Source of the DNA: Ornithinimicrobium cerasi
Lineage (GTDB): Bacteria > Actinomycetota > Actinomycetes > Actinomycetales > Dermatophilaceae
Reading direction: 5' to 3'
NCBI RefSeq assembly: GCF_003702705.1
Contig: NZ_QZMN01000011.1
Location: forward strand, 1 to 64,000
Length of the DNA: 64,000 bases
Part shown: piece by piece, positions 22,557 through 37,522 of the stretch
How positions within the stretch are numbered: position 1 is the first letter of the stretch
Layout: each line of letters begins with the position of its first letter
Notes under the pieces: generated by a model
What the model was told of the DNA's origin: nothing
Seen by the model: only the letters and a program-made list of their open reading frames with translations
Databases searched by the model: none
Position numbers and translations under genes: made by a program

Positions 22557-24460
22557 CAGCTGAGCGTGCCGCGGGCCGAGTCGAGCCAGAGCTTCTTCGT
22601 CGCGAGCTCGGACTCCAGCGTCGCGACCCGCCGCTCGTCACCGGCCGCGCGCGCGGCGGCCAGGTCGGACTCCAGGCCCTGCACCTGACGCTCGAGCTGC
22701 TGCACCATCGACGTGGCCCGGGCCGTCAGCTCGGGGTCGGCCCGGTTCCACTGCTTGTCCTCCAGGTCGCGGACCTGCTGCTCCACCGCCCGCAGCCTGC
22801 CCTCCACGCGGCGGATGTCCGCCCGCGGCACCTTCCCTGCCGCGTCCCAGCGGTCCTGGATCCGCCGCAGCTCGGCCTTGGCGGCCTCGAGGTTCTTCTC
22901 GTCGATCCTCAGCGCCTCCGCCTGGGTGAGCAGCTCCTCCTTGACCTTGAGGTTCTCGACGTACTCCGCCTCCTCGGCGGCCACCACCGCGTCCTTGGCG
23001 TCGAAGAACGCGTCCTGCGCCGTCTTGAACCGGCGCCAGAGGGCGTCGTCGTCCGTCCGGGACGCCCGCCCGGCGCGCTTCCAGTCCTGCATGAGCCGCT
23101 TGAAGGCACCCGCGGTCGGGCCCCAGTCCTTGCTGGTCGCGAGGGCCTCGGCCTCCTTGACGAGCTTCTCCTTGACCGACCTGGCCTGCCCGTGCTCCTC
23201 GTCCAGGCGGGCGAACCACACCTTGCGCGCCTTGTCGAAGGTGGTGCGGGCGGCGCTGAACCGCTTCCACAGCTCGCCCTCGACGTCCTTGTCCAGCCGC
23301 GGGCCGGAGCGCTGGTGCGCCTTCCACTCGTCCAGCAGCTCGCGCACGCGGGCGCTGGCCTGCTTCCACTGCATGGCGGCGGGCTCGGTCGCCGCGAGAC
23401 CCTCGGCCTCGACGACGAGCGTCTCCCGCTGCGCCGTCGCCGCCACCTTCGCGGCAGCTCGCTGCTCGGCCTCGGCCGCGGACCGGGCGGCGATGGAGGC
23501 CTTCAGCGAGGCCACCGTCGCCTCGAGGGCGGCGATGTCCCCGACCACGTGCGCCTCACCGATCTGCTCGGTGAGGTGGGCCAACGACTGCCGGGCGTCG
23601 TGCGCCGACACGTCGGTGTGCGCCACCCGCTGCGCGAGGAGGTCAGCGGCGGCGACGAGCTCGTCATACTTGCGCGCGAAGTAGGCCAGGGCCTCCTCGG
23701 GCGGAGCGTCCGGGTAGGACCCCACGGCGCGCTCGCTCCCGTCTGCGGCGATGACGTAGACGGTTCCGTCCTCGCCCACGCGGCCGTGCCGGACGGACTC
23801 GCTCGGTGTCGAGGGGACGGGGGCCGGCGGCGTCGCGGACGAGGCGTCCGAGGGCGCCGGTCGCGGGGCGACGGGCTTCCGGCTGGCGAACATCGCCGGC
23901 GAGGGGCCGGGTCGCCGCGGCGGGGACGGTGCGGGCACCGGCTCGGGTGCCGCCTGCTGCCGCACCTGCTCAGGCTCCGCCGGCTCCTGCTCCTGCTCGG
24001 GCTCGGCGGAGACGGCCACGTCAGCGACGTCGGGGTCGGGGACGACGACAGCCTCAGCTGTGTCGGGCTCGGGGACGACGACAGCCTCAGCTGTGTCGGG
24101 CTCGGGGACGACGACAGCCTCAGCTGTGTCGGGCTCGGGGACGACGACAGCCTCAGCTGTGTCGGGCTCGGGGACGACGACAGCCTCAGCTGTGTCGGGC
24201 TCGGGGACGACGACAGCCTCAGCGGCGTCGGGCTCGGGAGCCCTGTCCTCCTCCGGCTGCTCCTGCGCGGGCTCGGGGACGGCCGTTACCTCCTCCGGCT
24301 GCGGCGCGGTCGCCTCCGCCCCGAGGTCGTCGGCGACCTCCGGCGCGGGCCCTGCCGAGACGTCGGTCGTGGCACCCTCCGGCACAAGCTCTGCCGTGAC
24401 GTCGGTCGTGGCATCCTCCGGCTCGGGACGGCTGGTGTTCTGCTCGGGCTGCTCGGACAC
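22556..24460 (-). CDS. DUF349-repeat coiled-coil protein with tandem-repeat N-terminus
   Basis: A 634-aa acidic protein. The first about 240 residues are Pro/Glu/Val-rich and contain six 11-residue units of the type PEPDTAEAVVV. The rest is a long helical region with several DUF349 units (W-K-x-AGR/W-x-RF patterns such as DWKRAGRASRTDDDALWRRFK). Function is unknown; the family is common next to rel or hisS in actinobacteria. GTG 24460 is chosen because GAGAGAGG precedes it and the residues above it look untranslated. The DNA-level repeat implies a length polymorphism between strains. Confidence 0.85.
   Translation of the reverse strand: MSEQPEQNTSRPEPEDATTDVTAELVPEGATTDVSAGPAPEVADDLGAEATAPQPEEVTAVPEPAQEQPEEDRAPEPDAAEAVVVPEPDTAEAVVVPEPDTAEAVVVPEPDTAEAVVVPEPDTAEAVVVPEPDTAEAVVVPDPDVADVAVSAEPEQEQEPAEPEQVRQQAAPEPVPAPSPPRRPGPSPAMFASRKPVAPRPAPSDASSATPPAPVPSTPSESVRHGRVGEDGTVYVIAADGSERAVGSYPDAPPEEALAYFARKYDELVAAADLLAQRVAHTDVSAHDARQSLAHLTEQIGEAHVVGDIAALEATVASLKASIAARSAAEAEQRAAAKVAATAQRETLVVEAEGLAATEPAAMQWKQASARVRELLDEWKAHQRSGPRLDKDVEGELWKRFSAARTTFDKARKVWFARLDEEHGQARSVKEKLVKEAEALATSKDWGPTAGAFKRLMQDWKRAGRASRTDDDALWRRFKTAQDAFFDAKDAVVAAEEAEYVENLKVKEELLTQAEALRIDEKNLEAAKAELRRIQDRWDAAGKVPRADIRRVEGRLRAVEQQVRDLEDKQWNRADPELTARATSMVQQLERQVQGLESDLAAARAAGDERRVATLESELATKKLWLDSARGTLS
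24041..24238 (-). repeat. Six tandem copies of a 33-bp unit inside the DUF349 gene
   Basis: Copies start at 24041, 24074, 24107, 24140, 24173 and 24206. The first five appear identical; the sixth differs only where TGTGTC becomes GGCGTC (Thr to Ala). 33 bp keeps the frame, so gain or loss of units changes protein length without a frameshift. Near-identity at synonymous sites suggests recent expansion. Confidence 0.95.
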
Positions 24461-24552
24461 GACGGGTTGGCCTCTCTCGACCGCGAGCGCGACCATCGGG
24501 GTCACCTCGACAAGGGCATGAATTCCCCGAGCCTACCCAACGCCTCCCGGCA

Positions 24553-24558
24553 TAGGCT
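24553..24558 (+). promoter_or_regulatory. -10 box of leaderless MBL gene
   Basis: TAGGCT, 6 nt before ATG 24565. Confidence 0.6.
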
Positions 24559-24564
24559 GCCCGC

Positions 24565-25257
24565 ATGTTCGTGCGCAGCATCGTCGCCGACGCGTTCGGC
24601 ACCAACTGCTATGTCGTCGCGCCCGAGGAGGGCGAGGAGTGCGTCCTCGTGGACCCCGGTTTCGGGGTGGTCGAGCGGGTCCGGGAGGTGCTGGCGCAGC
24701 ACCGGCTGCGACCCGCGGCCGTGCTCCTCACCCACGGTCACCTCGACCACGTCTACTCGGTGACCCCGGTGTGCGGCGGCACCACGGCCGCCTACATCCA
24801 CGGTGACGACGCCTATCGCCTCAAGGACCCGGTCAGCCTCCTCACCGCACCGGTGCGCCTGGCGCTCGAGCAGCAGTTCGGCCGGGTCTCGACGTGGACC
24901 GAGCCGGAGCGGGTGGTGCACGTGCGTGACCGGGAGGTCCTCGAGCTGGCCGGCCTCCAGGTCGAGATCGCGCACGCTCCGGGTCACACCGAGGGGTCGG
25001 TCCTGTTCAGCCTGCCCGCGCTTCCCCACGGCCTCGCCTCGGACGAGCTGGACCGCACCGTCCTCTCCGGGGACGTCCTCTTCGCGGGCTCCATCGGCCG
25101 CACCGACCTGCCCGGGGGCGACCACGCCGCGATGGAGCGATCGTTGCGCGACGTGGTGATGCCGCTGGCCGACTCGTCCCTGGTCCTGCCCGGCCACGGA
25201 CCCGCGACGACGATGGCCCGCGAGCGGCGGACCAACCCCTACCTCCTCGCGCTCTGA
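24565..25257 (+). CDS. MBL-fold metallohydrolase (glyoxalase II-like)
   Basis: A 230-aa metallo-beta-lactamase-fold hydrolase. The metal motif THGHLDH is followed by [24 protein letters not shown] and PGHGPATT, all four metal-binding regions of the glyoxalase II-like group. Substrate unknown; the position next to hisS is conserved in actinobacteria (Rv2581c type). ATG 24565 lies 6 nt from TAGGCT. It is divergent from the DUF349 gene. Confidence 0.92.
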
Positions 25258-25306
25258 CCCCGCCGGAGGGCCCGGGCGGGCGGGCGGGCGCCCATCAGCC
25301 CCGACG

Positions 25307-25312
25307 TAGACT
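25307..25312 (+). promoter_or_regulatory. -10 box of leaderless hisS
   Basis: TAGACT, 7 nt before GTG 25320. Confidence 0.6.
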
Positions 25313-25319
25313 GCCCGGC

Positions 25320-26738
25320 GTGATCACCCCCCGCACGCCGTCCGGAACCTTCGAGCTGCTGCCCCCGGAGCAGATCGCCTTCCAACGGATGCTGGACGCC
25401 ATCCGCGCCGGCTACGAGCGGTTCGGGTTCCTCCCGGTCGAGACGCCGGTCTTCGAGCGCAGCGAGGTGCTGCTGACCAAGACCGGCGGCGAGACCGAGC
25501 GCCAGGTCTACTTCGTGCAGTCCACCGGTGCGCTCGAGAAGGCGCGCGACGCGGCCGGTGAGGGGGACGCGGAGGGCGAGGAGGCGGCATACCCCGAGCT
25601 CGCCCTGCGCTTCGACCTGACGGTGCCGCTGGCCCGCTACGTCGCCGAGCACGAGCACCAGCTGACCTTCCCGTTCCGCCGCTACCAGATGCAGCGGGTC
25701 TACCGCGGGGAGCGGCCCCAGCGGGGGCGGTTCCGCGAGTTCTACCAGTGCGACGTCGACATCATCGGCAAGGACGAGCTGTCGGTCCGCCACGACGCCG
25801 AGTGCCCGGCGATCATCCACGCGATCTTCACCGACCTGGCCATCGGCGCGTTCACGATCCAGGTCAACAACCGCAAGCTCCTGCGCGGGTTCTACGAGGA
25901 CCTCGGGATCGTGGACGGCGAGCAGCAGGCGGCGGTCCTGCGCGAGGTCGACAAGCTGGACAAGCGCGGCGAGGAATACCTGCGCACGACGCTGACCGGT
26001 GAGGACTTCGGGCTCGCGGAGGACGTCGTCGAGCAGATCCTCTCCTTCGTGCAGGTGCGCTCCACCGGGCACGACGACGCCCTCGCGCGGCTCGCCGCGG
26101 TCGAGGCGGCGTCGCGGGGGAGCCAGGCGCTGGCCGAGGGGGTCGCCGAGCTGCGTGAGGTGCTCACGCTGGTGCGGGCGCTCGGCGTGCCGGAGCAGGA
26201 CTACCGCCTCAACTTCTCGATCGCCCGCGGCCTGGACTACTACACGGGGACGGTCTACGAGACCGTCCTGGACGACCACCCCGAGATCGGGTCGATCTGC
26301 AGCGGCGGCCGCTACGACAACCTCGCGGGGCAGTACACCCGGTCCCGGCTGCCGGGCGTCGGGATCTCGATCGGGCTGTCCCGGCTGTTCTGGCAGCTGC
26401 GCGAGGCGGGCATCCTGCAAGCCTCGACGGCTCGCTCGACCGTGCAGGTGCTCGTCCCCCAGGTGGACGCCGCGCTGCTCGACGACCAGCTGGCGCTGGC
26501 CTCGCACCTGCGCCACGGCGGGATCAACACCGAGGCGGTGCTCGACGGGGGCAAGCTCGGCAAGCAGCTGCGGTATGCCGACCGCGCTGGGATCCGCTTC
26601 GTCGCGATCCTGGGGCCGCAGGAGGTGGGCGAGGGCACCGTGACGATCAAGGACCTGCGCCGACAGGACCAGTTCACCGTGCCCCGGGCCGAGGTCGTGG
26701 CGGCGCTGCGTGTGGAGCTCGCCCAGCCCGAGGTCTGA
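25320..26738 (+). CDS. hisS: Histidine--tRNA ligase
   Basis: A 472-aa class II HisRS. Motif 2 lies in [19 protein letters not shown], the histidine-specific loop is [13 protein letters not shown], motif 3 surrounds [12 protein letters not shown], and a C-terminal anticodon-binding domain begins near residue 375 (VQVLVPQVD). A Glu/Gly/Ala-rich insert near residues 78-95 is not part of the core. GTG 25320 is 7 nt from TAGACT. No T-box or leader peptide precedes it. Confidence 0.97.
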
Positions 26739-26762
26739 GCCTGCGGCACACGCCCCCGACCG

Positions 26763-26837
26763 CCGACTCACAGGCGCGAAACCTGCGGAACGGCGGATGC
26801 ATCTGGCCGGATGAAGGGCTCAACGCCTGTGAGTCGG
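26763..26837. repeat. 14-bp inverted repeat with structured 47-nt spacer
   Basis: CCGACTCACAGGCG (26763-26776) and CGCCTGTGAGTCGG (26824-26837) are perfect complements. The spacer holds a smaller near-palindrome (ATCTGGCCGGAT) and the palindrome GATGCATC. It lies between the convergent hisS and cyclophilin genes, so it could be a bidirectional terminator, a REP-like element or a small structured RNA. No T-tract follows either arm. Confidence 0.75.
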
Positions 26838-26919
26838 GGTGGGGGCGTCGGGGGTGGCGGCGTCGGGGGTGGCGGCGTCGGGGTGGGGGCGTCGGGGGGT
26901 GAGGGCGTCGAGGGTGGGG
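26836..26919 (+). repeat. G-run-rich degenerate tandem repeat
   Basis: At least five imperfect units ending GGCGTC, separated by runs of 4-6 G, follow directly after the inverted repeat. The plus strand has more than enough G-runs for a G-quadruplex. It ends 1 nt before the cyclophilin stop codon. Confidence 0.7.
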
Positions 26920-26920
26920 C

Positions 26921-27634
26921 TCAGCCCTCGTCGACCTCGACGGAGAGGATGCTGACGGGCTGCGCGGGCGGGCCGTCGGGGGCGCCGCCCTCGGCCCCTG
27001 CCGCGGCGATCGCCTCAACGATGTCGAGACCCTCGGTCACCCGGCCGAACACGCTGTAGCCACCGCCGTCGGTCGGCAGCTGGGTCTCCTCGTAGACCAC
27101 GAAGAACTGCCCGCCGTTGCTCTCCGGGTCGGCGGTGCGGGCCATCGCGAGCGTGCCGGCGGGGTAGACGCCGGCCTCGGGGGCGTTCTCGATGCCGTAG
27201 CCGTAGCCCGGGTTGCCGCGGCCGGTGCCGGAGGGGTCGCCGCACTGCAGGACGAAGATGCCCGAGGTGGTCAGGCGGTGGCAGGGGCTGTCGTCCCAGT
27301 AGCCCTCCTCGGCGAGGAAGGCGAAGGAGGCCACGGTCTGCGGGGCGGCGGCCGCGTCGAGCTCGAGCACGATGTCGCCGCAGGTGGTGGTCAGGGTCGC
27401 GGTCAGGGTGGCCGGGTCGCCGGTCAGCGGCTGCGGCAGGTCGTCCTGGGTGAAGCTGCGGACGTCGGCCGGGGCCGCGGGCGGCTCCTCGCAGGCCAGT
27501 GCGGCACCGTCGGCACCGGTGGCGGACACGGTCGCCGTGTCCTGCGCCCCGGGGAAGGTCGCGTTCCCCGAGCCGCAGCCGGCCAGGGGGATGGCGAGGA
27601 CCGACAGGAGCACGGGGAGGGAGCGGCGGCGCAT
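26921..27634 (-). CDS. Cyclophilin-type peptidyl-prolyl isomerase lipoprotein
   Basis: A 237-aa exported PPIase. The N-terminal MRRRSLPVLLSVLAIPLAGC gives a signal peptide with lipobox LAGC at about residue 20. The cyclophilin domain (about 80-237) has APQTVASFAFLAEEGYW, FVLQCGDPSGTG and NGGQFFVVYEE. Some active-site positions are altered compared with classical cyclophilins (CHRLTTSGIFVLQ in place of FHRV...F.IQ), as in other actinobacterial lipoprotein versions. ATG 27634 is 7 nt from TAGGGT. It probably helps extracytoplasmic protein folding. Confidence 0.9.
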   Translation of the reverse strand: MRRRSLPVLLSVLAIPLAGCGSGNATFPGAQDTATVSATGADGAALACEEPPAAPADVRSFTQDDLPQPLTGDPATLTATLTTTCGDIVLELDAAAAPQTVASFAFLAEEGYWDDSPCHRLTTSGIFVLQCGDPSGTGRGNPGYGYGIENAPEAGVYPAGTLAMARTADPESNGGQFFVVYEETQLPTDGGGYSVFGRVTEGLDIVEAIAAAGAEGGAPDGPPAQPVSILSVEVDEG

Positions 27635-27641
27635 GCCGCAC

Positions 27642-27647
27642 ACCCTA
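27642..27647 (-). promoter_or_regulatory. -10 box of leaderless cyclophilin gene
   Basis: TAGGGT on the minus strand, 7 nt before ATG 27634. Confidence 0.6.
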
Positions 27648-27701
27648 GTAGCGGGCGCCCGCAGGCAGCCGATGCGGTTCCCCACCGTCGCTCGTGTTAG
27701 C

Positions 27702-27719
27702 GTACTAGCGCGTTATTAC
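27702..27719 (+). promoter_or_regulatory. Candidate operator resembling the trp operator
   Basis: GTACTAGCGCGTTATTAC has the 7+4+7 layout of the E. coli TrpR operator as I recall it (GTACTAG-TTAA-CTAGTAC). The left half matches 7/7 and the right half 5/7. It ends 23 nt before the TrpR-family gene and overlaps the likely promoter, so autoregulation, and control of the his operon by read-through, is plausible. Confidence 0.5.
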
Positions 27720-27742
27720 ACACCGCCACCAGGAGTACATCG

Positions 27743-28069
27743 ATGAAGCAGCGCGAGGACGGTCCGGAGCGGGCCCGTCAGGTCCGGGCCCAGCTGGCCC
27801 AGGTCGTCGCCGCCCTCACCGACCCCGTCGAGGTCGACGCCTTCCTCGAGGACCTGTGCACGCCGGCCGAGATCGAGGCGCTGGCCGACCGCTGGTCGGT
27901 CGTCCCCCTGCTGGCCCAGGGGATGTCCTACCGCCAGATCCACGAGGACACCGGGGTGAGCGTCACGACCGTGGGCCGCATCGCACGCTGCCTCGAGGGT
28001 GGCGCCGGCGGCTACCGGGCCGCGCTCGAGCATCATCCCGGCCGAACGCAGGCCGCCCCGACGCCCTGA
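27743..28069 (+). CDS. TrpR-family (YerC/YecD-like) regulator, candidate histidine repressor
   Basis: A 108-aa protein of the TrpR superfamily. The helical dimer core (about 12-60) contains the family signature [14 protein letters not shown] and the helix-turn-helix lies at about 62-84 ([20 protein letters not shown]). ATG 27743 has AGGAG 7 nt upstream. It stands 103 bp before hisG in the same direction, with no obvious terminator between. TrpR-family genes occupy the same place in Xanthomonadales his operons, where a HisR role has been proposed (recalled, not checked). The co-repressor may be histidine; this is inference. Confidence 0.8.
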
Positions 28070-28172
28070 GCACCGACCGGCACGCCCCAGCCCCGCACGA
28101 CCCTCGCCCGACCCCGCGACGAACGCCCCGGCCCCGAGCCCACGGCATACCGACCCCTCCCGGAAGGCCCCG

Positions 28173-29081
28173 ATGACCCCGCCCGCCCAGCCGCGCGACC
28201 GCCTCCGCGTCGCCGTCCAGAAGAGCGGCCGCCTCGGCGACCCCGCCCGCGAGCTGCTCGCCTCGTGCGGGCTGACGTGGCGCGAGAGCCGGGACCGGCT
28301 GTTCCTCTACGGCGAGAGCCTGCCCGTGGACGTGCTCCTCGTCCGCGACGACGACATCCCCGGGCTGATCGCCGACGGCGTCTGCGACCTCGGGGTGGTG
28401 GGGCGCAACGTCCTCGTCGAGCACGGGCTGGAGCACGAGGCCCAGGGGCGGGGGGTCCGGCTCACCGAGTGGCGCCAGCTGGGGTGGGGCGTCTGCCGCC
28501 TCGACGTCGCCGTCCCCGAGGACCTGGAGTGGACCGGCCCCGCGCAGCTCGAGGGGCTGCGCATCGCGACCTCCTACCCGCAGACCCTCGGACGCTGGCT
28601 GCGCGAGCAGGGGGTCGACGCCCAGCCGGTCGTCCTCAACGGCTCGGTCGAGATCGCCCCGCGCCTCGGGCAGGCCGACGTCGTGTGCGACCTCGTCTCC
28701 ACCGGCGGCACGCTGCGCGCCAACCAGCTGCGCCCGGTGACGACCATCCTGGAGTCCGAGGCCGTCATCGCCGGGCCGGACCACACCCTCGAGGACGGCC
28801 GGCAGGAGATCGCCGACCTGCTGCTGCGTCGCCTCGACGGGGCGGTGCAGCTCAAGGAGGCGCGGCTGCTCATGCTCCGCACGGACCGTTCCCTGGTCGA
28901 CACGGTCCTCCCGCTGCTGCCCGCGGGCCACGAGCCCACCGTGCTGCAGGTCGACGGGCGCGACGAGGTGTCCGTGCAGGTGCTGGTGCACGGCTCGGTG
29001 TCGTGGTCACGGCTCGAGGAGCTCAAGCGCGCCGGGGCCTCCAACCTCATGGTGCTGCCCGTGGAGGGGATGCTGGCATGA
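28173..29081 (+). CDS. hisG: ATP phosphoribosyltransferase (long, gammaproteobacterial type)
   Basis: A 302-aa HisG catalysing the first step of histidine synthesis, with catalytic domains followed by the C-terminal regulatory ACT-like domain. The segments [37 protein letters not shown] and [12 protein letters not shown] follow the E. coli protein closely. The mycobacterial type that I recall reads quite differently (VPNKGAL at the start). ATG 28173 has GGAAGG 5 nt upstream. No histidine-rich leader peptide occurs in the 103 nt before it. It overlaps hisD by 4 nt. Confidence 0.96.
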
Positions 29082-30427
29082 ACGTCCTGACCTGGACCGA
29101 GCTGGGCGAGGCCGAGCGGGTGGAGGCCCTGCGCCGCGCCACCGCGGCGGCCGGCGCCGAGGTGACCGAGGGGGTGGCGGCGATCCTGGGGCAGGTCCGC
29201 GACCGGGGTGACGAGGCCCTGCGTGAGCTCACCGCCCGCCTCGACGGCGCCCGCCCCGCCCGGCTCGAGGTGCCGGTGGCCGACCGGGACGCCGCGGCGG
29301 CCGGTCTCGACCCCGAGCTGCGCGCGGCGATCACCGAGGCCGCCGGCCGCATCCGCGCCTTCCACGAGGCCGGGATGCAGTCGGGGTATGCCGTGGAGAC
29401 CGCCCCCGGGGTGGTGTGCGAGCGTGTCGTCCGACCGATCCGCCGCGTCGGCCTCTACGTCCCCGCCGGCTCCGCGCCGCTGCCCTCCACCGCGCTCATG
29501 CTCGGTGTCCCCGCCCAGCTGGCCGGCTGCCCGGAGGTGGTGCTGTGCACCCCGCCCCGCCCGGACGGCACCGCCGACCCCGCCGTGCTCGCGGCGGCCG
29601 CCGAGTGCGGCATCGCCCGGGTCTTCGTCGTGGGTGGCGCGCAGGCGGTCGCTGCGATGGCGTACGGCACCGACTCGGTCCCACGGTGCGACAAGATCTT
29701 CGGTCCCGGCAACGCCTGGGTCACCGAGGCCAAGCGGCAGGTGTCGACGGCCGAGGGCGGACCCGGGATCGACATGCCGGCCGGGCCGTCGGAGGTGCTC
29801 GTCATCGCCGACGCCTCGGCCGACCCCGAGTTCGTCGCCGCCGACCTGCTCTCGCAGGCCGAGCACGGGCCGGACAGCCAGGTGGTGCTGCTGACCGACT
29901 CCCGGGCGCTGGCCGAGGCGGTCGCGGAGGAGGTGGAGGCTCAGGTCGAGACCCTGCCGCGGGCGGCGATCGCCCGCAAGGCCCTCGCGTCCAGCCGCCT
30001 CGTCGTCACCCCCGACCTCGCCACCGCGGTCGAGGTGTCCAACGACTACGCCCCCGAGCACCTCATCCTCGCGGTGCAGGACCCGCGGACCCTCCTCGCC
30101 GGGATCGAGCGGGCCGGGTCGGTGTTCCTGGGGATGATGACGCCGGAGACGCTCGGCGACTACTGCTCCGGGACCAACCACGTCCTCCCCACGGCCGGGG
30201 CCGCCCGGTTCACCGGTGGCGTCAACGTGTCTGCGTTCCAGATCGCCATGACGGTGCAGGAGGCGACCCCCGCCGGTCTGGAGCGGGTGGGTCCGACGGC
30301 GGTGGTGCTGTCGGGGGCCGAGCAGCTGCACGCGCACCAGCGCGCCGTCACCCGGCGGCTGGACCGCATCGTCGCCGGGCGCGCCGGCGTCGGGGGTCCG
30401 GCGGACACCGACGGGGTGCGCCCATGA
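29078..30427 (+). CDS. hisD: Histidinol dehydrogenase
   Basis: A 449-aa zinc enzyme that oxidises histidinol to histidine. It shows [15 protein letters not shown], the NAD-binding [44 protein letters not shown] and the zinc/substrate segment [12 protein letters not shown]. Wording is closer to gammaproteobacterial HisD than to the usual actinobacterial form. ATG 29078 overlaps hisG by 4 nt; its own stop overlaps hisC by 4 nt. A 25-residue Gly/Ala-rich tail ends the protein. Confidence 0.97.
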
Positions 30428-31512
30428 CCGGCTTCCCGGAGCACCTGCTGCGCGAGGACCTGCGCGACTTCACCGGCTACTCCTCGGCCCGCACGAGCGC
30501 GCCGGGGACGGCGACGCCGGCGCGGATCTGGCTGAACGCCAACGAGTCCGGCTACCCGAGCTCCGTGGACGTCGACGGCACCAGCCGCCGCTATCCCGAC
30601 CCGCAGCCGTCCGCGCTCGTGGATGCCTTCGCCGACCTGTGGGCGACCACGCCGGACCGGGTCGTCGTCGGGCGCGGCAGCGACGAGATGATCGAGCTGC
30701 TGGTGCGGGCGCTGTGCCGCCCGGGCGGCGACGGGGTGGTCGTGACCCCACCGACCTTCGGGATGTATGCCGTCTCCGCCCGGCTCCACGGGTCGCCCGT
30801 CGTCGACGTGCCCCAGGTCGACGACGGCCTGACCTGGCGGGTCGACACCGACGCCGTCGCCGCCGCCGCCGTGGCGGCCGGGGCGAGGCTCGTCTTCCTG
30901 GCCTCGCCGGGCAACCCGACCGCCTCCGTCGTGCCGCTGCGGCAGGTGAGCGACCTGGCCGAGCGGCTGGCGGACCGCGCGGTCGTCGTGGTCGACGAGG
31001 CCTATGGCGAGTTCGCCTCGCAGCGCTCCGCCGTCACGCTGCTCGAGGAGCACCCCAACCTCGTCGTGCTCCGCACCCTGTCCAAGGCCCACGGCCTGGC
31101 CGGGCTGCGCGTCGGGCTCGCGCTGGTCCACCCCGACCTCGCCGTCGTGCTCCGCCGGGTGCAGGCGCCCTACCCCGTGCCCGTGCCGGTCGCCGAGCTC
31201 GCGCTGAGGGCCCTGACCCCCGAGGCGCTGGAGGCGACCCGCCAGCGGGTCGGGGGGACGCTGCGGCTGCGGGACCGCGCCGTGCGGGCCCTGCGCGACC
31301 TCGACGGGGTGCGGGCCATCTACGCCAGCGAGGCCAACTTCCTCCTCGTCCGCTGCGACGAGCCGGACCGCCTCCTGGACGTCCTGACCGCCGACGGCAT
31401 CGTGGTGCGTGACATGCGCCACCTGCCCGGGCTCGACGACGCCCTCCGCATCACCATCGGCACCGACCTCGAGATGACCGCCCTCGACCGCGCACTGGGA
31501 GACCCCTCATGA
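30424..31512 (+). CDS. hisC: Histidinol-phosphate aminotransferase
   Basis: A 362-aa fold-type I PLP enzyme. It has [39 protein letters not shown], the Asp-x-Ala-Tyr of [11 protein letters not shown], and the PLP lysine in [15 protein letters not shown]. The order and phrases (LNANE, RYP-PQP, PPTFGMY) resemble the E. coli/Xanthomonas form. ATG 30424 lies in a 4-nt overlap with hisD, and the stop overlaps hisB. Confidence 0.96.
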
Positions 31513-32615
31513 GCCCGACCGCCCGCCCGATCTGCTTCGTCGACCGTGACGGGACGATCATCACCGAGCCGGAGGACCACCAGGTGGACCGCCTGGACAA
31601 GGTCGCCTTCGTCGACGGCGTGATCCCCGCGCTGCTGCGGATCCAGGACGCCGGCTTCGACCTCGTCATGGTGACCAACCAGGACGGCCTGGGCACCGAC
31701 TCCTTCCCCCAGGAGGCCTTCGACGCGGCGCACGGCCTGGTGATGCAGGTCCTGACCAGCCAGGGGGTCCGCTTCCGGGAGGTCGTCGTGGACCCGCACC
31801 ACGGCGGACCGGAGGCCCCGTGGACCCGCAAGCCGGGCATCGGTCGGGTCGTCCACCTCCTCAAGGACCACGGCGTCGACTGGTCCCGCTCCTTCATGGT
31901 CGGGGACCGCCTCTCCGACAAGCAGTTCGGCGACAACCTCGGCATCCGCACCTACCTGCTGCCCGCCGGCGCCGGCCTGGGGAGCGAGCTGCCCACGACG
32001 ACCTGGCCGCAGATCGCCCACGCCGTCGTCGACCGACCCCGCACCGCCCGGGTGGAGCGCAGCACCAGCGAGACGCGCATCGTCGTCGACGTCGACCTCG
32101 ACGGCACGCCCGGCGGCGTCGCCGAGACCGGGATCGGCTTCTTCGACCACATGCTCGACCAGCTCGCCAAGCACGGGGGCTTCGCGATGCGGGTGCGCTG
32201 CGACGGCGACCTCCACATCGACGACCACCACACCGTCGAGGACGTGGCCCTCGCCGTGGGCGAGGCGGTGCGGGAGGCGCTGGGCGACAAGCGCGGCATC
32301 GGTCGCTACGGCTTCACCCTGCCCATGGACGAGGCGCAGGCGACGGCGGCGATCGACCTGTCCGGGCGCCCGTACTTCCGCTACGAGGGCGCCTTCGACC
32401 GGCCGAGCGTCGGCGAGTTCTCCACCGAGATGGTCGAGCACTTCTGGCGCTCCTTCGCCGACGCGCTGCGGTGCACGCTGCACCTGTCCGTCACCGGGAC
32501 CAACACCCACCACCAGGTGGAGGTCGGGTTCAAGGCCGTCGCCCGTGCCCTGCGCCAGGGCCTGGCCCGCTCGGGGGACGCCACCGAGCTCCCGTCCACG
32601 AAGGGGGTCCTGTGA
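31509..32615 (+). CDS. hisB: Bifunctional histidinol-phosphatase/imidazoleglycerol-phosphate dehydratase
   Basis: A 368-aa fusion. Residues about 1-165 are a HAD phosphatase (nucleophile loop VDRDGT with Asp12 and Asp14; VTNQDGLGT; MVGDRLSD). Residues about 183-368 are the dehydratase, with GFFDHMLDQLAKHGG, DDHHTVED, EHFWRS and a C-terminal LPSTKGVL that nearly equals the E. coli end. Actinobacteria normally have a dehydratase-only HisB and a separate HisN. The zinc loop of E. coli HisB (Cys-x-His...Cys-x-Cys before RKP) is here residues 95-107 (DPHHGGPEAPWTR) and has no Cys, as I recall for Xanthomonas. ATG 31509 overlaps hisC. Confidence 0.96.
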   Translation: MSPTARPICFVDRDGTIITEPEDHQVDRLDKVAFVDGVIPALLRIQDAGFDLVMVTNQDGLGTDSFPQEAFDAAHGLVMQVLTSQGVRFREVVVDPHHGGPEAPWTRKPGIGRVVHLLKDHGVDWSRSFMVGDRLSDKQFGDNLGIRTYLLPAGAGLGSELPTTTWPQIAHAVVDRPRTARVERSTSETRIVVDVDLDGTPGGVAETGIGFFDHMLDQLAKHGGFAMRVRCDGDLHIDDHHTVEDVALAVGEAVREALGDKRGIGRYGFTLPMDEAQATAAIDLSGRPYFRYEGAFDRPSVGEFSTEMVEHFWRSFADALRCTLHLSVTGTNTHHQVEVGFKAVARALRQGLARSGDATELPSTKGVL

Positions 32616-33223
32616 GCGGACCCCGGATCGCTCTCGTCGACTCGGGCGGGACCAACATCGGGTCGGTCACGTATGCCCTGGAACGGCTGGGTGCGACGGC
32701 CCGCCTCACCTCCGACCCGGCCGACATCCTCGCCGCCGACCGGGTGATCCTGCCCGGCGTCGGCGCGGCCGCGGCCGGCATGCGCCGGCTCCGCGAGGCC
32801 GGCCTCGTCGAGACCCTGCACGAGGTCCAGGCGCCCCTCCTCGGCGTCTGCCTCGGTATGCAGCTGCTCTTCGACCGCTCCGCCGAGGACGGCGGGGTGG
32901 AGGCCCTCGGCCTCATCCCCGGGGACGTGGTCGCCATACCTCCCGCCCCGGGGGTGCGGGTGCCGCACATGGGCTGGAACGCCCTGGAGGGGCTGGCCGA
33001 CGACCCGCTGCTGCGCGGCGTCGCACCGGGGGAGCGCGCCTACTTCGTGCACTCCTACGCCGCACCTGTCGGCGCCCGCACCGTCGCTACGACCACCCAC
33101 GGCGGGGTGTGGTCGGCGGTCGTGCGCGACGGGCTACGGTGGGGCGCACAGTTCCACCCGGAGCGTTCCGCCGCGCTCGGCGCGCGACTCCTGCGTAACT
33201 TCATCGTCGAGGTCGGCCGATGA
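32612..33223 (+). CDS. hisH: Imidazole glycerol phosphate synthase, glutaminase subunit
   Basis: A 203-aa class I amidotransferase that supplies ammonia to HisF. Nucleophile Cys80 is in GVCLGMQLL and the His-Glu pair in FHPERS. VPHMGWN and YFVHSYAAP are typical. GTG 32612 lies in a 4-nt overlap with hisB, and the stop overlaps hisA by 4 nt, which suggests tightly matched synthesis. Confidence 0.96.
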
Positions 33224-34008
33224 CGCGCCACCTGTCCACCTCGACCGGAGAGCTTCCCGTGAGCACCCCCTTCACCGTCTACCCGGCCATCGACGTGAGA
33301 GGCGGGGCCGTGGTGCGCCTGCTGCGCGGCGACTACGAGAAGGAGACGCGCTACACCGACGACCCGGTCGCCGTCGCCACCAGCTACGCCCGCTCCGGCG
33401 CCCGGTGGCTGCACCTCGTCGACCTCGACGCGGCACGGGCGGGCGGCTACACGCTCCTGGAGACGCTCACCCGGATCGTCGACACGACCGGCCTCATGGT
33501 GCAGACCGGCGGCGGCGTCCGGTCCGCCGACGACGTGCATCGGCTGCTCGACGCCGGGGCGACCCGGGTCGTCGTGGGGTCGCTGGCGGTGGAGGATCCG
33601 GGCATGGTGACGGGCTGGCTGGAGACGTTCGGGCCCGAGCAGGTCACCGTGGCGCTCGACACGCGCACCGGCGACGACGGGGTGTGGGTGCTGCCGACGG
33701 CGGGCTGGACCTCGGTCGCCGACCAGGACCTCATCACCACGCTGCACCGCTACGACGCGTCGGGGCTGCGGCACGTGCTGTGCACGGACATCGGGCGGGA
33801 CGGCACCCTGTCCGGCCCGAACTTCCACCTCTACACGATGCTCACCCGCTCGGCCCCCCACCTGCAGGTCCAGGCCTCCGGCGGCGCCCGGGACGTGGAC
33901 GACGTGCGCGCCGCCCGGCGCCACGGCTGCGCCGGGATCATCCTCGGCAAGGCCCTCCTCGAGGGTCGCCTGACGGTGACCCAGGCGATCGAGGAGGAGG
34001 GGCTGTGA
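33220..34008 (+). CDS. hisA: HisA isomerase (not the PriA type)
   Basis: A (beta/alpha)8 isomerase of 262 aa, converting ProFAR to PRFAR. Catalytic Asp residues are seen in YPAIDVRGG and [15 protein letters not shown]; the phosphate site is GGARDVDD and GKALLEG. It has [12 protein letters not shown], the HisA wording, where actinobacterial PriA has a VELSGGIRDD-like sequence. So I expect HisA activity only, without the TrpF activity of PriA. ATG 33220 overlaps hisH; GTG 33259 behind GGAGAG gives a protein starting [10 protein letters not shown] and may be the true start. Confidence 0.93.
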
Positions 34009-34796
34009 CGCTCGCCCGCCGGATCATCCCCTGCCTGGACGTCCGGGACGGCCGCGTCGTCAAGGGCACGAGGTTCCGCGACCACCGCGACATGGGCGAC
34101 ATCGTGGAGCTGGCGACGCGCTACGCGGCCGAGGGCGCCGACGAGCTCGTCTTCTACGACATCACCGCCAGCCCCCAGAGCCGCGCGGTCGACGTCGAGT
34201 GGGTCCGCCGGGTGGCCAGGGTCATCGACATCCCCTTCTGCGTCGCCGGGGGAATCCGCTCGGTGGGGGCCGCCCGCGCGGTCCTGCACGCCGGCGCGGA
34301 CAAGGTCTCCGTCAACACGCCGGCCACCCAGCGACCAGATCTGGTCAGCGAGCTCGCCGACGCCTTCGGGGTGCAGTGCGTCGTCGTCGGCGTCGACAGC
34401 CTGCGCGACGAGGACGGCGTCTGGCGGATCCGCCAGCTCACCGGCGACCCCGACGCCACCCGGGCCCTGCCCGTCCCCACCCTCGAGTGGGTCCCGCAGG
34501 TGGTCGGTCTCGGGGCCGGCGAGGTCGTCCTCAACTGCATGGGCTCGGACGGCGTGCGCTCCGGGTATGACGTGGAGCAGCTGGCCGCCGTCCGTGCCGT
34601 CTGCGCCGTGCCACTCATCGCCAGCGGCGGGGCCGGCGCCCCGGAGCACTTCACCGAGGTCTTCCGCGACGCCGACGTCGACGGGGCGCTCGCCGCGACC
34701 GTCTTCCACTCCGGCGCCATCTCGATCCCCGCCCTCAAGCGCGACCTGGCCGCGGCGGGGCTCGTGGTCCGCGAGGTCCCGGGGGCCGCGGCGTGA
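34005..34796 (+). CDS. hisF: Imidazole glycerol phosphate synthase, cyclase subunit
   Basis: A 263-aa TIM-barrel cyclase that makes IGP and AICAR from PRFAR. Catalytic Asp residues lie in [15 protein letters not shown] and in [26 protein letters not shown] and VAGGIRS match gammaproteobacterial HisF better than the LTFLDITAS wording of actinobacteria. GTG 34005 overlaps hisA; the stop overlaps hisIE. Confidence 0.96.
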
Positions 34797-35494
34797 TCCC
34801 GCTGCGCCCGGAGGGTCTCGGCGTGGCGGACGTGGACTTCGCCAAGGCGGGCGGCCTGGTCCCGGGCGTCGTCCAGCACGCCCGCACCGGACAGGTGCTG
34901 ATGGTGGGGTTCCTCGACGAGGGGGCGCTCGCCGCCACCCTGGAGACGGGGCTCGCCACGTTCTGGTCCCGCAGCCGCGGGACGTCGTGGACCAAGGGGG
35001 AGACCAGCGGCAACGTGCTGCGGGTCGAGGCGGTCGAGGTGGACTGCGACCGAGACACCCTGCTCCTGCACGCCCTCCCCGCCGGGCCGACGTGCCACAC
35101 CGGTGACGACACCTGCTTCGGCCCCGACGCCCTCGCCCCCGAACCCACACCGACCGACGGGTCGGCGCGGACGGGCCGGGGGGTCGGCGCGGACACCCCG
35201 ACGGGACGGCACGGTCAGCACTTCCTGCCCGAGCTGGACGCCGTGGTGGCGAGCCGCAGGGCGGAGCTGCCCGAGGGCTCCTACACGACGCGCCTGTTCA
35301 CCGACGGCGTCCGGCGCATCGCGCAGAAGGTCGGGGAGGAGGGCGTCGAGACGGCGCTCGCCGCCGTGGCCCAGGACGACGACGCCCTGCTGGGGGAGTC
35401 CGCGGACCTGGTGTACCACCTGCTCGTCCTGCTGCGCGCGCGGGGACTCGGGCTCGAGGACGTCGAGCGGGTGCTGCGCCAGCGGCACGGCTGA
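34793..35494 (+). CDS. hisIE: Fused phosphoribosyl-AMP cyclohydrolase/phosphoribosyl-ATP pyrophosphatase
   Basis: A 233-aa HisI-HisE fusion. Residues about 1-110 are the cyclohydrolase ([26 protein letters not shown], the metal-binding DCDRDT and CHTGDDTCF). Residues about 140-233 are the MazG-like pyrophosphatase ([23 protein letters not shown]). A linker of about 30 residues rich in Thr, Gly and Pro joins them. Actinobacteria usually encode hisI and hisE separately. GTG 34793 overlaps hisF; it is the last gene of the operon. Confidence 0.95.
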
Positions 35495-35500
35495 CCCGGC

Positions 35501-36229
35501 TCAGCGCACCAGCTCTCGCGCGTAGCGGTCGAGCCTCGCCGCCACCTCGTCCGGCCGGCTCAGCATCGCCGAGTGGCTGCCCGGCACCTCGTCCACGTCC
35601 AGCCCCAGCCGGTCCCGGGCCAGCCGGCGCTGGAACGCGGGCGGGAAGAACCTGTCGTCCCGTCCCACCAGCACGCGCGTCGGCACGTCTGGCCAGGCGG
35701 TGAGCGGCCAGGGGTCCAGGAACGGACGGGAGGACTGGTCCCGGGTGTGCCGCCCCGCCTCGGCGAAGAGCTCCGTCGGGACGTCGTGGCCGAACACGAC
35801 GGCCGGGTCCTCCAGCGTGCAGGCGTCCAGCCCCAGCCGGAGGGCCTCGGCCTCCATGGCCTGCCGCTGCCCGGTGACCTCCCACCACTCGCCGCCGGTC
35901 TCGCCCGGCGCGGGGATCATCGGGTTGAGCAGCACCAGGAGGGCGACGGGCACGAGGTCGCAGAGCAGTGGCGCCGTCATCGCACCCATCGACTGGCCCA
36001 CGACGACCAGCGGTGCCGGCCCCCCGGGCGCGCACGCGGCGGCCACCCGGGCGTATGCCGTGAGTCCCGCCTCCTCGTCGTCGGCGGGCAGGTCCACGGC
36101 CACCGCCCGGTGACCGCGGGCGTGCAGGCCGCGCGCGACGAGGTGCCAGGACGACGCGGCACCGCCCGCGCCCGGGATGAGCAGGAAGGTCGTGATGCTC
36201 CTCCGACCAGCGCGGGCGACCGGAGTCAT
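35501..36229 (-). CDS. Alpha/beta-fold hydrolase
   Basis: A 242-aa hydrolase. The oxyanion region is FLLIPGAGGAASSWH, the nucleophile serine is in VVGQSMGAM, an acidic residue is in VLVGRDDRFFP and the histidine in VPGSHSAML. The overall form resembles RsbQ/EstC-type esterases; substrate unknown. It starts in a 4-nt overlap with the upstream membrane-protein gene. The stop is 7 nt from the hisIE stop (convergent). Confidence 0.85.
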   Translation of the reverse strand: MTPVARAGRRSITTFLLIPGAGGAASSWHLVARGLHARGHRAVAVDLPADDEEAGLTAYARVAAACAPGGPAPLVVVGQSMGAMTAPLLCDLVPVALLVLLNPMIPAPGETGGEWWEVTGQRQAMEAEALRLGLDACTLEDPAVVFGHDVPTELFAEAGRHTRDQSSRPFLDPWPLTAWPDVPTRVLVGRDDRFFPPAFQRRLARDRLGLDVDEVPGSHSAMLSRPDEVAARLDRYARELVR

Positions 36230-36831
36230 CGACGCGACCGGAGACCGACCTGCCCGAGCTCCAGGTCCGCCAGCGCTCGCAAGGACGAGGGATCACCGGA
36301 GCGGAAGGCGCCCACGGGGTCCGCGAGGACGGCCTGCAGCCGGCGCGGGTCCTGGCGCACGAGCGCCCGCAGCGCGAGCAGCTCGATGGACTCCGGGTCG
36401 TCCAGCTCGCGGCCCAGCGCGGATGCCCGACGCATCCACGTCACCCGCACGAGCAGCCACAGCAGCACGACGAGCAGGACCGGCGTCGCCGCGGTCGTCA
36501 GGGAGACGACCATCGCGACCGTCGACACCGACCGCTCGAGCGTGTCGCCGGCGTCCACCAGGTCGGCACCGACGCCTGCGGCCCCGGTGAAGGGCGCGTC
36601 CAGCCGGTCCCCGACGAGGGGGATCTCGGTCACCGTGGCTGCGGCCTCGGTCATCCGGTCGCGCAGCGAGGTGCCGGCGTCCCGCAGCGGATCCGCAGGG
36701 GCGGCGAGCGTCATCACCAAGCCGTGCACCCACCGCGCGACGAGCACCCAGAGCACCACCCAGGCCGCCACGAGGAGGTCCATGAGCACCTGACGGGTGT
36801 GGCGTCCGGGGGAGTCGGCATACCAGCGCAT
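36226..36831 (-). CDS. Membrane protein of unknown function
   Basis: A 201-aa protein with two strong membrane helices: about residues 16-40 (LMDLLVAAWVVLWVLVARWV) and about 105-130 (MVVSLTTAATPVLLVVLLWLLV). A loop of about 60 residues between them is probably extracytoplasmic, and the Arg/Leu/Asp-rich C-terminus is cytoplasmic. I recognise no family. It shares a transcript with the following hydrolase. Confidence 0.7.
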   Translation of the reverse strand: MRWYADSPGRHTRQVLMDLLVAAWVVLWVLVARWVHGLVMTLAAPADPLRDAGTSLRDRMTEAAATVTEIPLVGDRLDAPFTGAAGVGADLVDAGDTLERSVSTVAMVVSLTTAATPVLLVVLLWLLVRVTWMRRASALGRELDDPESIELLALRALVRQDPRRLQAVLADPVGAFRSGDPSSLRALADLELGQVGLRSRR

Positions 36832-36901
36832 GGGGCCCAGTCTCTCCCGACCAGATCAGTCCCGACCGCAACGCTGCGGCGCGGTGGGACATCATCGGGG
36901 C

Positions 36902-37522
36902 ATGACGCCTCTGAAGCTGGTGGTCCTGGGGATCCTGGTCGTTGCCCTCGACCTCGACGTGGGCACGGTCGACCTTCTCCTCGACCCCGTGGGGTACGGC
37001 CTCGTCGTGCTCGGCGTGCACCGGGTCGCCCACCTGCACGCCGCCCTCCCCTGGGCGCGTGCCGCCGCAGGTGCGGGACTCGTCGCCTCGGTGCCGGCCC
37101 TCCTCCTCCGGCGGCTGGAGACGGACGTGACCGGTGAGGGCGGCTTCACCACCACCACCCACCGCCTCGTCGAGCACCCCGTCCCCGTCGCGGTGGAGGC
37201 CCTGGCGCAGGCGGCCTTCGTGATCACGGTGTGCACCGCCCTGATCGCCCTCGCGACGAGCGACAGGGTCCGCGCCCCGGCCAGAGTGCTCCGGTGGGCG
37301 CTCCCGGCCGTCGACCTGTTCGCCGTCCTCCTGGGCCTCGTCCTTTTCGCGCTGACGGGCGACGGCGACGTCGAGGTCGCGCCCGGCCCACTGGCCGCGC
37401 TGGCCCTCCTGCTCGTCGTCGTGACCCTCGTCCTGGCGGTCTGGTTCGTCGTGGTGCTCGTCCGGGCGTCCCGCGAGCCGGCCCTGTCGGGCGGCCACGC
37501 CCCTGCGGTGATCGCCGGGTGA
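36902..37522 (+). CDS. Polytopic membrane protein of unknown function
   Basis: A 206-aa hydrophobic protein with about five membrane segments ([78 protein letters not shown]). No catalytic motif is seen. ATG 36902 is the first start after the divergent gene. Its stop overlaps the xerD GTG by 4 nt, so it is co-transcribed with xerD. Confidence 0.7.

Follow-up and report, generated by a model that had tools for sequence, protein, structure and literature searches.

The first 64,000 nucleotides of contig NZ_QZMN01000011.1 of Ornithinimicrobium cerasi, referred to here as the window, contain a complete histidine operon of gammaproteobacterial type, hisR-hisG-D-C-B-H-A-F-IE (27743–35494, entirely on the + strand), preceded by a gene for histidyl-tRNA synthetase (HisRS), hisS. 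This foreign hisS-hisR-his block very probably displaced the native histidine pathway of its actinobacterial host, and the native priA gene was kept and apparently became a dedicated phosphoribosylanthranilate (PRA) isomerase. The donor would be a Lysobacteraceae-like gammaproteobacterium, resolved to the family level only. Contig C7, which begins with the window, belongs to a genome of 3.83 Mb that is 99.99% complete. In the following, “the genus” denotes Ornithinimicrobium/Serinicoccus, with 32 genomes including the window’s own; it was compared with 27 relatives from other genera, five in the same family and 22 in the same order.

The his block and its origin

The gene order of the operon was that given in a preliminary description of this stretch, a trpR-like gene followed by hisG-D-C-B-H-A-F-IE, as judged from coordinates and family profiles (Table 1). 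The overlaps of 4 nt (ATGA or GTGA) described there were present at all 7 his–his junctions; hisR and hisG are separated by a gap of 103 nt. The predicted TrpR-family regulator turned out to be of the YerC/YecD type (TIGR02531, 62.5 bits; cut-off 42.2) and not TrpR itself, since it fell under the cut-off of the TrpR equivalog TIGR01321 (27.3; cut-off 67.25). The two-domain HisB (NF003937, 493; cut-off 443) and the HisIE fusion (NF002747, 242.7; cut-off 187) were likewise recovered, and the operon indeed encodes HisA rather than PriA, with a score above the cut-off for TIGR00007 (240.8; cut-off 228.95) and below that of the PriA model TIGR01919 (160.7; cut-off 306.45). In this order of genes, as in its bifunctional HisB and its HisIE fusion, the operon matches the his operon of Lysobacterales. 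The “long form” of HisG had also been taken as a mark of foreign origin. Its length was dropped as such a mark, because native actinobacterial HisG has 281–298 aa in five family loci; its sequence, at 29–37% identity to the relatives, does set it apart.

Two trees were calculated from concatenated HisD-C-B-H-A, a quick tree of 60 rows (12 genus, 16 labelled Lysobacterales, 20 other and 12 native) and a careful tree of 34 rows (8, 12, 6 and 8, respectively). Sampling on the donor side comprised the best 80 of 591 stretches from a contig scan, which listed at least three records of the host clade, and the fragmented operons of genomes G004 and G009 were left unmended. Both trees placed the genus within Lysobacteraceae, in agreement with the transfer of operon and regulator from a Xanthomonadales-like source that had been proposed, and not inside Actinobacteria, the placement that had been named as speaking against it. 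In the careful tree, the nesting in Lysobacteraceae lay under starred branches with support of 100/99, 100/98 and 98/95, and Lysobacter was sister to the genus at 93/95, on a branch without a star. A tree for each protein had been called for as well. Of ten single-gene quick trees, five had an exclusive branch of genus and Lysobacterales with support of at least 90 (hisS 99, hisG 92, hisD 98, hisA 99 and hisF 94), a weaker outcome than that of the concatenation.

Median identities (%) to Lysobacterales, to other rows (mainly other gammaproteobacteria) and to native actinobacterial rows were 59.5/44.7/31.1 for hisG, 63.1/52.4/42.3 for hisD, 52.4/39.1/32.7 for hisC, 56.9/52.7/45.9 for hisB, 60.5/43.3/40.5 for hisH, 60.3/43.3/36.0 for hisA, 70.8/61.2/48.3 for hisF, 54.1/45.5/none for hisIE, 64.9/52.2/none for hisR and 66.6/none/41.6 for hisS. 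Individual values for hisR against the hisR of Lysobacterales operons ranged from 50 to 70%. Matches covering less than half of the query (native-locus hisB exempt) and translations with stops were dropped; the native rows number 4 for hisF, 5 for hisG and 0 for hisIE and hisR, and the “other” medians include a few further Lysobacterales, one Oligoflexales and one Elusimicrobia row.

The foreign block extends beyond the hisR-his operon and includes hisS. The HisRS of the window was 67–73% identical to that of 11 of the 15 Lysobacterales tested and 36–47% identical to that of 26 family and order relatives; other gammaproteobacteria gave mostly partial matches of 29–39%. Nine of these 11 Lysobacterales carry hisS ahead of hisR in the same orientation, at a distance of 0.3–5.1 kb (0.3–0.9 kb in Xanthomonas and Stenotrophomonas). 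In the other two it is found away from the operon, elsewhere on the contig in Rudaea and on another contig in Dokdonella. The HisRS of the 11 Lysobacterales had a mean tree distance of 3.96 to that of other gammaproteobacteria, and that of the genus a distance of 2.27 to native actinobacterial HisRS. The sequence distance between Lysobacterales and the other gammaproteobacteria compared suggests an older replacement of HisRS in that order.

The foreign hisS sits at the native hisS position. In Ornithinimicrobium sediminis (L120), a metallo-β-lactamase (MBL)-fold hydrolase gene is followed by the foreign hisS, hisR and the his operon, and then by a homolog of the conserved gene at 36226 in the window. 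The relatives L230 and L232 have the same two genes on either side of their own hisS, and in L233 the 36226-like gene lies 1.5 kb from hisS. The MBL gene precedes the native hisS in 8 of the 9 relatives’ loci compared; a 36226-like gene follows the his block at 9 of the 13 genus loci compared (7 of 11 genomes) and is present at 3 of the 9 native loci, several of the stretches ending short of that position. These shared flanks place the block at the position of native hisS. A search of the 32 genus genomes detected no second HisRS (G004 being fragmented and G024 cut by a contig end). The cyclophilin gene that separates hisS from hisR in the window is located ahead of the MBL gene both in O. sediminis and at 7 of the 9 relatives’ loci, and was relocated in the window’s subclade. 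An alpha/beta hydrolase gene directly after hisIE (35501–36229, − strand) had no match at any other operon locus of the genus in the comparison. If the hisH-overlapping start is used, HisA has about 14 extra N-terminal residues (33220–33262) relative to the HisA of L213, which starts right at the conserved part.

A single predicted HisR operator would have come with the block. The proteobacterial HisR box, a 20-bp palindrome whose consensus was taken from PMC9413887, is located 22 nt before hisR with 1 mismatch; 0.01 chance matches would be expected in the window at ≤2 mismatches. All 34 genus rows (some of which share a genome, and O. sediminis, L120/L222, not among them) had a best site with ≤4 mismatches ahead of hisR, with p ≤ 0.01 against 200 shuffles in 32 rows and p = 0.11 in two, and all 25 other hisR rows had ≤3 mismatches. 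An operator of the Lysobacterales/genus pattern occurs at one place in the whole genome. hisR is the first gene of the operon, with the box upstream of it; by analogy with its homologs, the imported HisR is predicted to act from this one operator and to repress the operon at high histidine. The actinobacterial HisR described in PMC9413887 comes from 22 genomes of Coriobacteriales and Eggerthellales, has a different box and is there never beside his genes. No Rfam family scored above its gathering score in window positions 24000–37000. A complete hisR-his operon in the same order, with a weak HisR box, was also seen in an Elusimicrobia metagenome-assembled genome (MAG), L175.

Full-length bifunctional HisB (query aligned from residue 1–5 to 368) is encoded by all 32 genomes of the genus and by 0 of the 27 other relatives, which argues against the possibility, raised beforehand, that the arrangement is ancestral in related families. 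The best match in 26 of these relatives covered the dehydratase part only and one had no match; 7 of the 27 showed, elsewhere, a further and weak match that covered the phosphatase domain. HisB was matched in 349 of 395 genomes sampled evenly over the phylum (three shared with the relatives set). None of the matches listed outside the host was full-length or started before residue 147; a full-length relative, if present in these genomes, should rank among the best matches listed.

Table 1. Features of the foreign block and its surroundings, in window coordinates.
Feature	Position	Strand	Description and basis
MBL-fold hydrolase gene, native	24565–25257	+	Left flank of the foreign block
hisS	25320–26738	+	Lysobacterales-type histidyl-tRNA synthetase; TIGR00442 393.5 (cut-off 286.75)
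Cyclophilin gene, native neighbor	26921–27685	−	Between hisS and hisR in the window’s subclade
Predicted HisR operator	27701–27720		Proteobacterial consensus, 1 mismatch
hisR	27743–28069	+	Predicted histidine repressor, TrpR family (YerC/YecD); family profile match
hisG	28173–29081	+	Reading frame and family profile
hisD	29078–30427	+	Reading frame and family profile
hisC	30424–31512	+	Reading frame and family profile
hisB	31509–32615	+	Phosphatase/dehydratase, two domains; family profile
hisH	32612–33223	+	Reading frame and family profile
hisA	33220–34008	+	Monofunctional phosphoribosylformimino-5-aminoimidazole carboxamide ribotide (ProFAR) isomerase family, not PriA; profile and tree
hisF	34005–34796	+	Reading frame and family profile
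hisIE fusion	34793–35494	+	Reading frame and family profile
Conserved gene without Pfam match	36226–36831	−	Right flank of the his block

Fate of the native pathway and of PriA

In the five family genomes from other genera, hisD, hisC, hisB, hisH and priA share one locus (5 of 5, with hisD 4 kb from the remainder in L061). Four of the five also have sseB among these genes, and wherever the sequence extends far enough, glnE or infC marks the end of the locus. In the genus, sseB and the retained native priA (priA*) were kept in all 15 loci fetched from the 32 genomes, and hisD, hisC, hisB and hisH were absent from all 15 (the L049 stretch is short). In the window’s genome, the gap between glnE and sseB is 9 nt, and sseB overlaps priA* by 4 nt, so that the deletions look clean. 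The second native locus of the relatives, hisE-hisG ... hisF ... hisI-trpE ... trpCBA, was reduced to pnuC, a PH domain gene ... trpC(BA) in the 5 genus genomes inspected, and hisE, hisG, hisF, hisI and native trpE were absent from it in all 5. Genome-wide, no second HisB dehydratase, HisG or HisI was detected in the 32 genus genomes, HisG and HisI being single copy in each. The replacement of the native pathway that had been claimed is thus borne out by the loss of his genes from both loci and by the search for second copies, but it was not complete, as native priA is still present, and it went further than claimed in that hisS was replaced too.

Two side observations concern these loci. Native trpE gave best matches of ≤44% partial identity in 6 of 6 genus genomes, and the trpCBA loci L287–L291 lack trpE. 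A 656–663 aa fusion of chorismate-binding and glutamine-amidotransferase parts (L298:1270–3240 and L300), for which anthranilate synthase models scored best yet far below cut-off, may be a substitute for it. In L061, hisD and hisC are separated by a stretch with a cobalamin riboswitch (L061:954–1166); it was the sole Rfam match in the five native loci, L046 and L120.

Every genus genome encodes HisA, HisF and a third PF00977 protein, PriA*, which scores weaker than the PriA of the relatives, most of which have two such proteins. The gene of the window’s genome (G000:C51:275015–275743) falls short of the cut-off for dual-function PriA (TIGR01919, 180.5; cut-off 306.45). In a HisA/PriA tree, PriA* was placed on the PriA side at 100/100, and the HisA of the genus grouped with Lysobacteraceae, adjoining Lysobacter at 94/84. 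TrpF (PF00697) was not found in any of the 32 genus genomes or in 26 of the 27 other relatives by a search that detected 14 of 14 controls, and PriA* is apparently, from its sequence and genomic setting, the only TrpF of the genus.

Active-site residues were compared in M. tuberculosis numbering, placed by motif. S81 and R143, two further residues of PriA, were added to the published list. D11, S81, D130, R143 and D175 were kept in 32 of 32 PriA* sequences, and the four ProFAR-site residues R85, T105, W145 and T170 were lost in all 32, each of the 26 outgroups having retained them; W145 is replaced by T (19), S (12) or V (1) and T170 by A (32). Apart from the two added positions, the list is that of PMC13055916 (2026), where the PriA of Ornithinimicrobium murale was shown by complementation to be TrpF-only and named “SubTrpF2”. 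The features given there are present throughout: the lost residues, the retention of D11, D130 and D175, the co-occurrence of HisA and the failure to find trpF. Loss of the corresponding tryptophan is also described for the SubTrpF of Actinomycetaceae in PMC5404923. R19Q, listed in PMC13055916, is not specific to SubTrpF2: Q stands at residue 19 not only in all 32 genomes of the genus but also in 5 of 5 from the rest of the family, and R in 21 of 21 others. At least three relatives with Q19 (G032–G034) have PriA and HisF as their sole PF00977 proteins. Because Q19 is common to other family genera, R19Q predates the specialization, a caution that active-site changes in a specialized PriA need not all reflect the loss of HisA activity. 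The median pairwise identity of PriA* within the genus was 55.3% (32 rows), compared with 79.3% for family PriA between genera (5 rows) and 72.6% for the HisA of the genus (27 rows).

Proposed history and alternative explanations

The history proposed here starts before the species diverged, when the ancestor of the genus would have received hisS-hisR-hisG-D-C-B-H-A-F-IE with its operator from a Lysobacteraceae-like gammaproteobacterium, the native HisRS gene being replaced in place. The native his genes at the two other loci would have become redundant and then been deleted: hisD, C, B and H from glnE-hisDCB-sseB-hisH-priA, and hisE, G, F and I from the pnuC...trpCBA locus. The priA gene presumably could not be lost because the lineage has no trpF that we could find and PriA was needed for tryptophan. 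Once the imported enzyme provided HisA activity, PriA would have kept its catalytic residues, lost the ProFAR-specific ones and diverged fast, becoming a PRA isomerase, as judged here from sequence and by others from activity in O. murale. We infer that there was a single transfer, that hisS was replaced by recombination in one integration step, that selection for TrpF acted on priA, and that the operon is repressed by histidine.

Several observations weigh against this history. The exclusive branch of genus and Lysobacterales was weak for hisC (7) and hisH (9), was absent from the quick trees of hisB (dehydratase part) and hisIE, and in that of hisR took in 12 of 14 Lysobacterales rows with support of 67. 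Two MAG rows labelled Lysobacterales, L148 and L161, fell outside that clade in the quick concatenated tree, were counted as “other” and were omitted from the careful tree. For four of the 15 Lysobacterales, no full HisRS like that of the window was found: there was no match in two of them, a 46% fragment in one and a 33% partial match in L148. The hisS tree shows genus and Lysobacterales as sisters, with no nesting, and thus the direction of transfer rests on synteny and the concatenation. In the HisA/PriA tree, the approximately unbiased (AU) test did not reject Lysobacterales HisA without the genus (p = 0.099) or genus HisA beside all PriA (p = 0.27). PriA* was basal among PriA on a long branch, and its grouping with family PriA was not rejected (p = 0.50). 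Native copies of hisD, hisC, hisH and hisE were sought, and not found, at the native loci only. The G+C content of the operon steps (0.737–0.763) is not set apart from that of the window (0.657–0.763); the composition is as G+C-rich as the host, as had been noted, and is of no use as evidence of foreignness.

PMC13055916 reads SubTrpF2 as the product of a lineage-specific duplication, in which HisA and PriA derive from one hisA/priA gene of the family, with a new “physiological” locus recruiting the PriA copy. The third PF00977 protein of the genus fits such a duplication. However, a clade of genus HisA and PriA* was rejected by the AU test (p = 1.2 × 10⁻¹⁴), HisA groups with Lysobacteraceae, as does the rest of its operon, and priA* stands at the ancestral his locus, now devoid of hisDCBH, and not at a new one. 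On the AU test and synteny we reject this reading, which is left with hardly any probability. A transfer in the opposite direction, with Lysobacterales receiving hisS-hisR-his from an Ornithinimicrobium-like actinobacterium, would account for the distance of Lysobacterales-type HisRS from other gammaproteobacteria and for the sister relationship in the hisS tree. It is nevertheless very unlikely, with the operon of the genus nested within Lysobacteraceae, a different native system in the other genera of the family and order, and the deletion scars on the actinobacterial side.

Two or more events, in which hisS was replaced and hisR-his was added beside it at another time, are a somewhat more serious possibility, although still an improbable one. 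The separation of hisS from the operon in Rudaea and Dokdonella, the up to 5.1 kb between hisS and hisR in other Lysobacterales and the lack of nesting in the hisS tree are all consistent with separate events. On the other side, 9 of 11 Lysobacterales have hisS at most 5.1 kb before hisR and in the same orientation, hisS and the his parts both point to the same order, and none of the 32 genomes combines foreign hisS with native his genes, or the reverse. No point was found in support of assembly contamination or a mis-binned gammaproteobacterial contig, the least probable explanation by far, since all 32 genomes, of which 12 are single contigs, have the same HisB, and native neighbor genes flank the block on both sides.

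Under displacement by the foreign block, the his operon might, in a tentative and rather doubtful extension, have come in as a passenger or served as a remedy, without being an improvement. Selection could have acted on hisS, for example through resistance to a HisRS inhibitor, and the operon would have come along at the hisS locus. Alternatively, the family PriA, with the R19Q change at a residue reported to matter for HisA activity, might have been weak as a ProFAR isomerase in the ancestor, so that a foreign HisA would have been beneficial at once. If so, the genus would offer a traceable natural case of a complete foreign pathway, with a tRNA synthetase and a repressor, turning a bifunctional enzyme into a specialist.

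Relation to known systems

The his block shares with the hisS...hisR-hisGDCBHAFIE cluster of Lysobacterales its gene order, HisR box, fusions, the linkage of hisS (9 of 11) and many 4-nt overlaps (four Lysobacterales inspected). It differs in its place, the native hisS slot of an actinobacterial chromosome, and in being the only his pathway found there. No report of the operon transfer or of the hisS replacement was found in the open-licence full-text literature. The PriA of the genus agrees with the SubTrpF2 of Ornithinimicrobiaceae in PMC13055916, which also names the SubHisA of Corynebacterium, in lost residues, bacterial group and lack of trpF. In contrast to that account, native priA is here what was left at the ancestral locus after takeover by a foreign operon. 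Displacement by a foreign operon would be the cause of an enzyme specialization that has until now been read as duplication, in a case where one can see the recipient, the order of the donor, the site of entry and the traces of the deletions.

The SubHisA of Corynebacterium, reportedly described by Noda-Garcia in 2013, is said to have arisen after acquisition of a whole trp operon. In both cases, foreign genes cover one PriA activity and the PriA of the recipient specializes in the other, but the genus is the mirror image, with a his operon gained, HisA activity lost and TrpF kept, and here native pathway genes and a tRNA synthetase were displaced too. Taken as a pair, the two would test whether gaining either half of PriA function by transfer drives specialization in the other half. 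In the genus, an exchange between phyla displaced an essential aminoacyl-tRNA synthetase along with an entire biosynthetic operon and the repressor of that operon. The case also recalls the gene displacement in situ in operons that Omelchenko is said to have described in 2003. As in that process, a foreign ortholog, hisS, has replaced the native gene at its own locus; unlike it, an eight-gene pathway and its repressor here stand beside the replaced essential gene.

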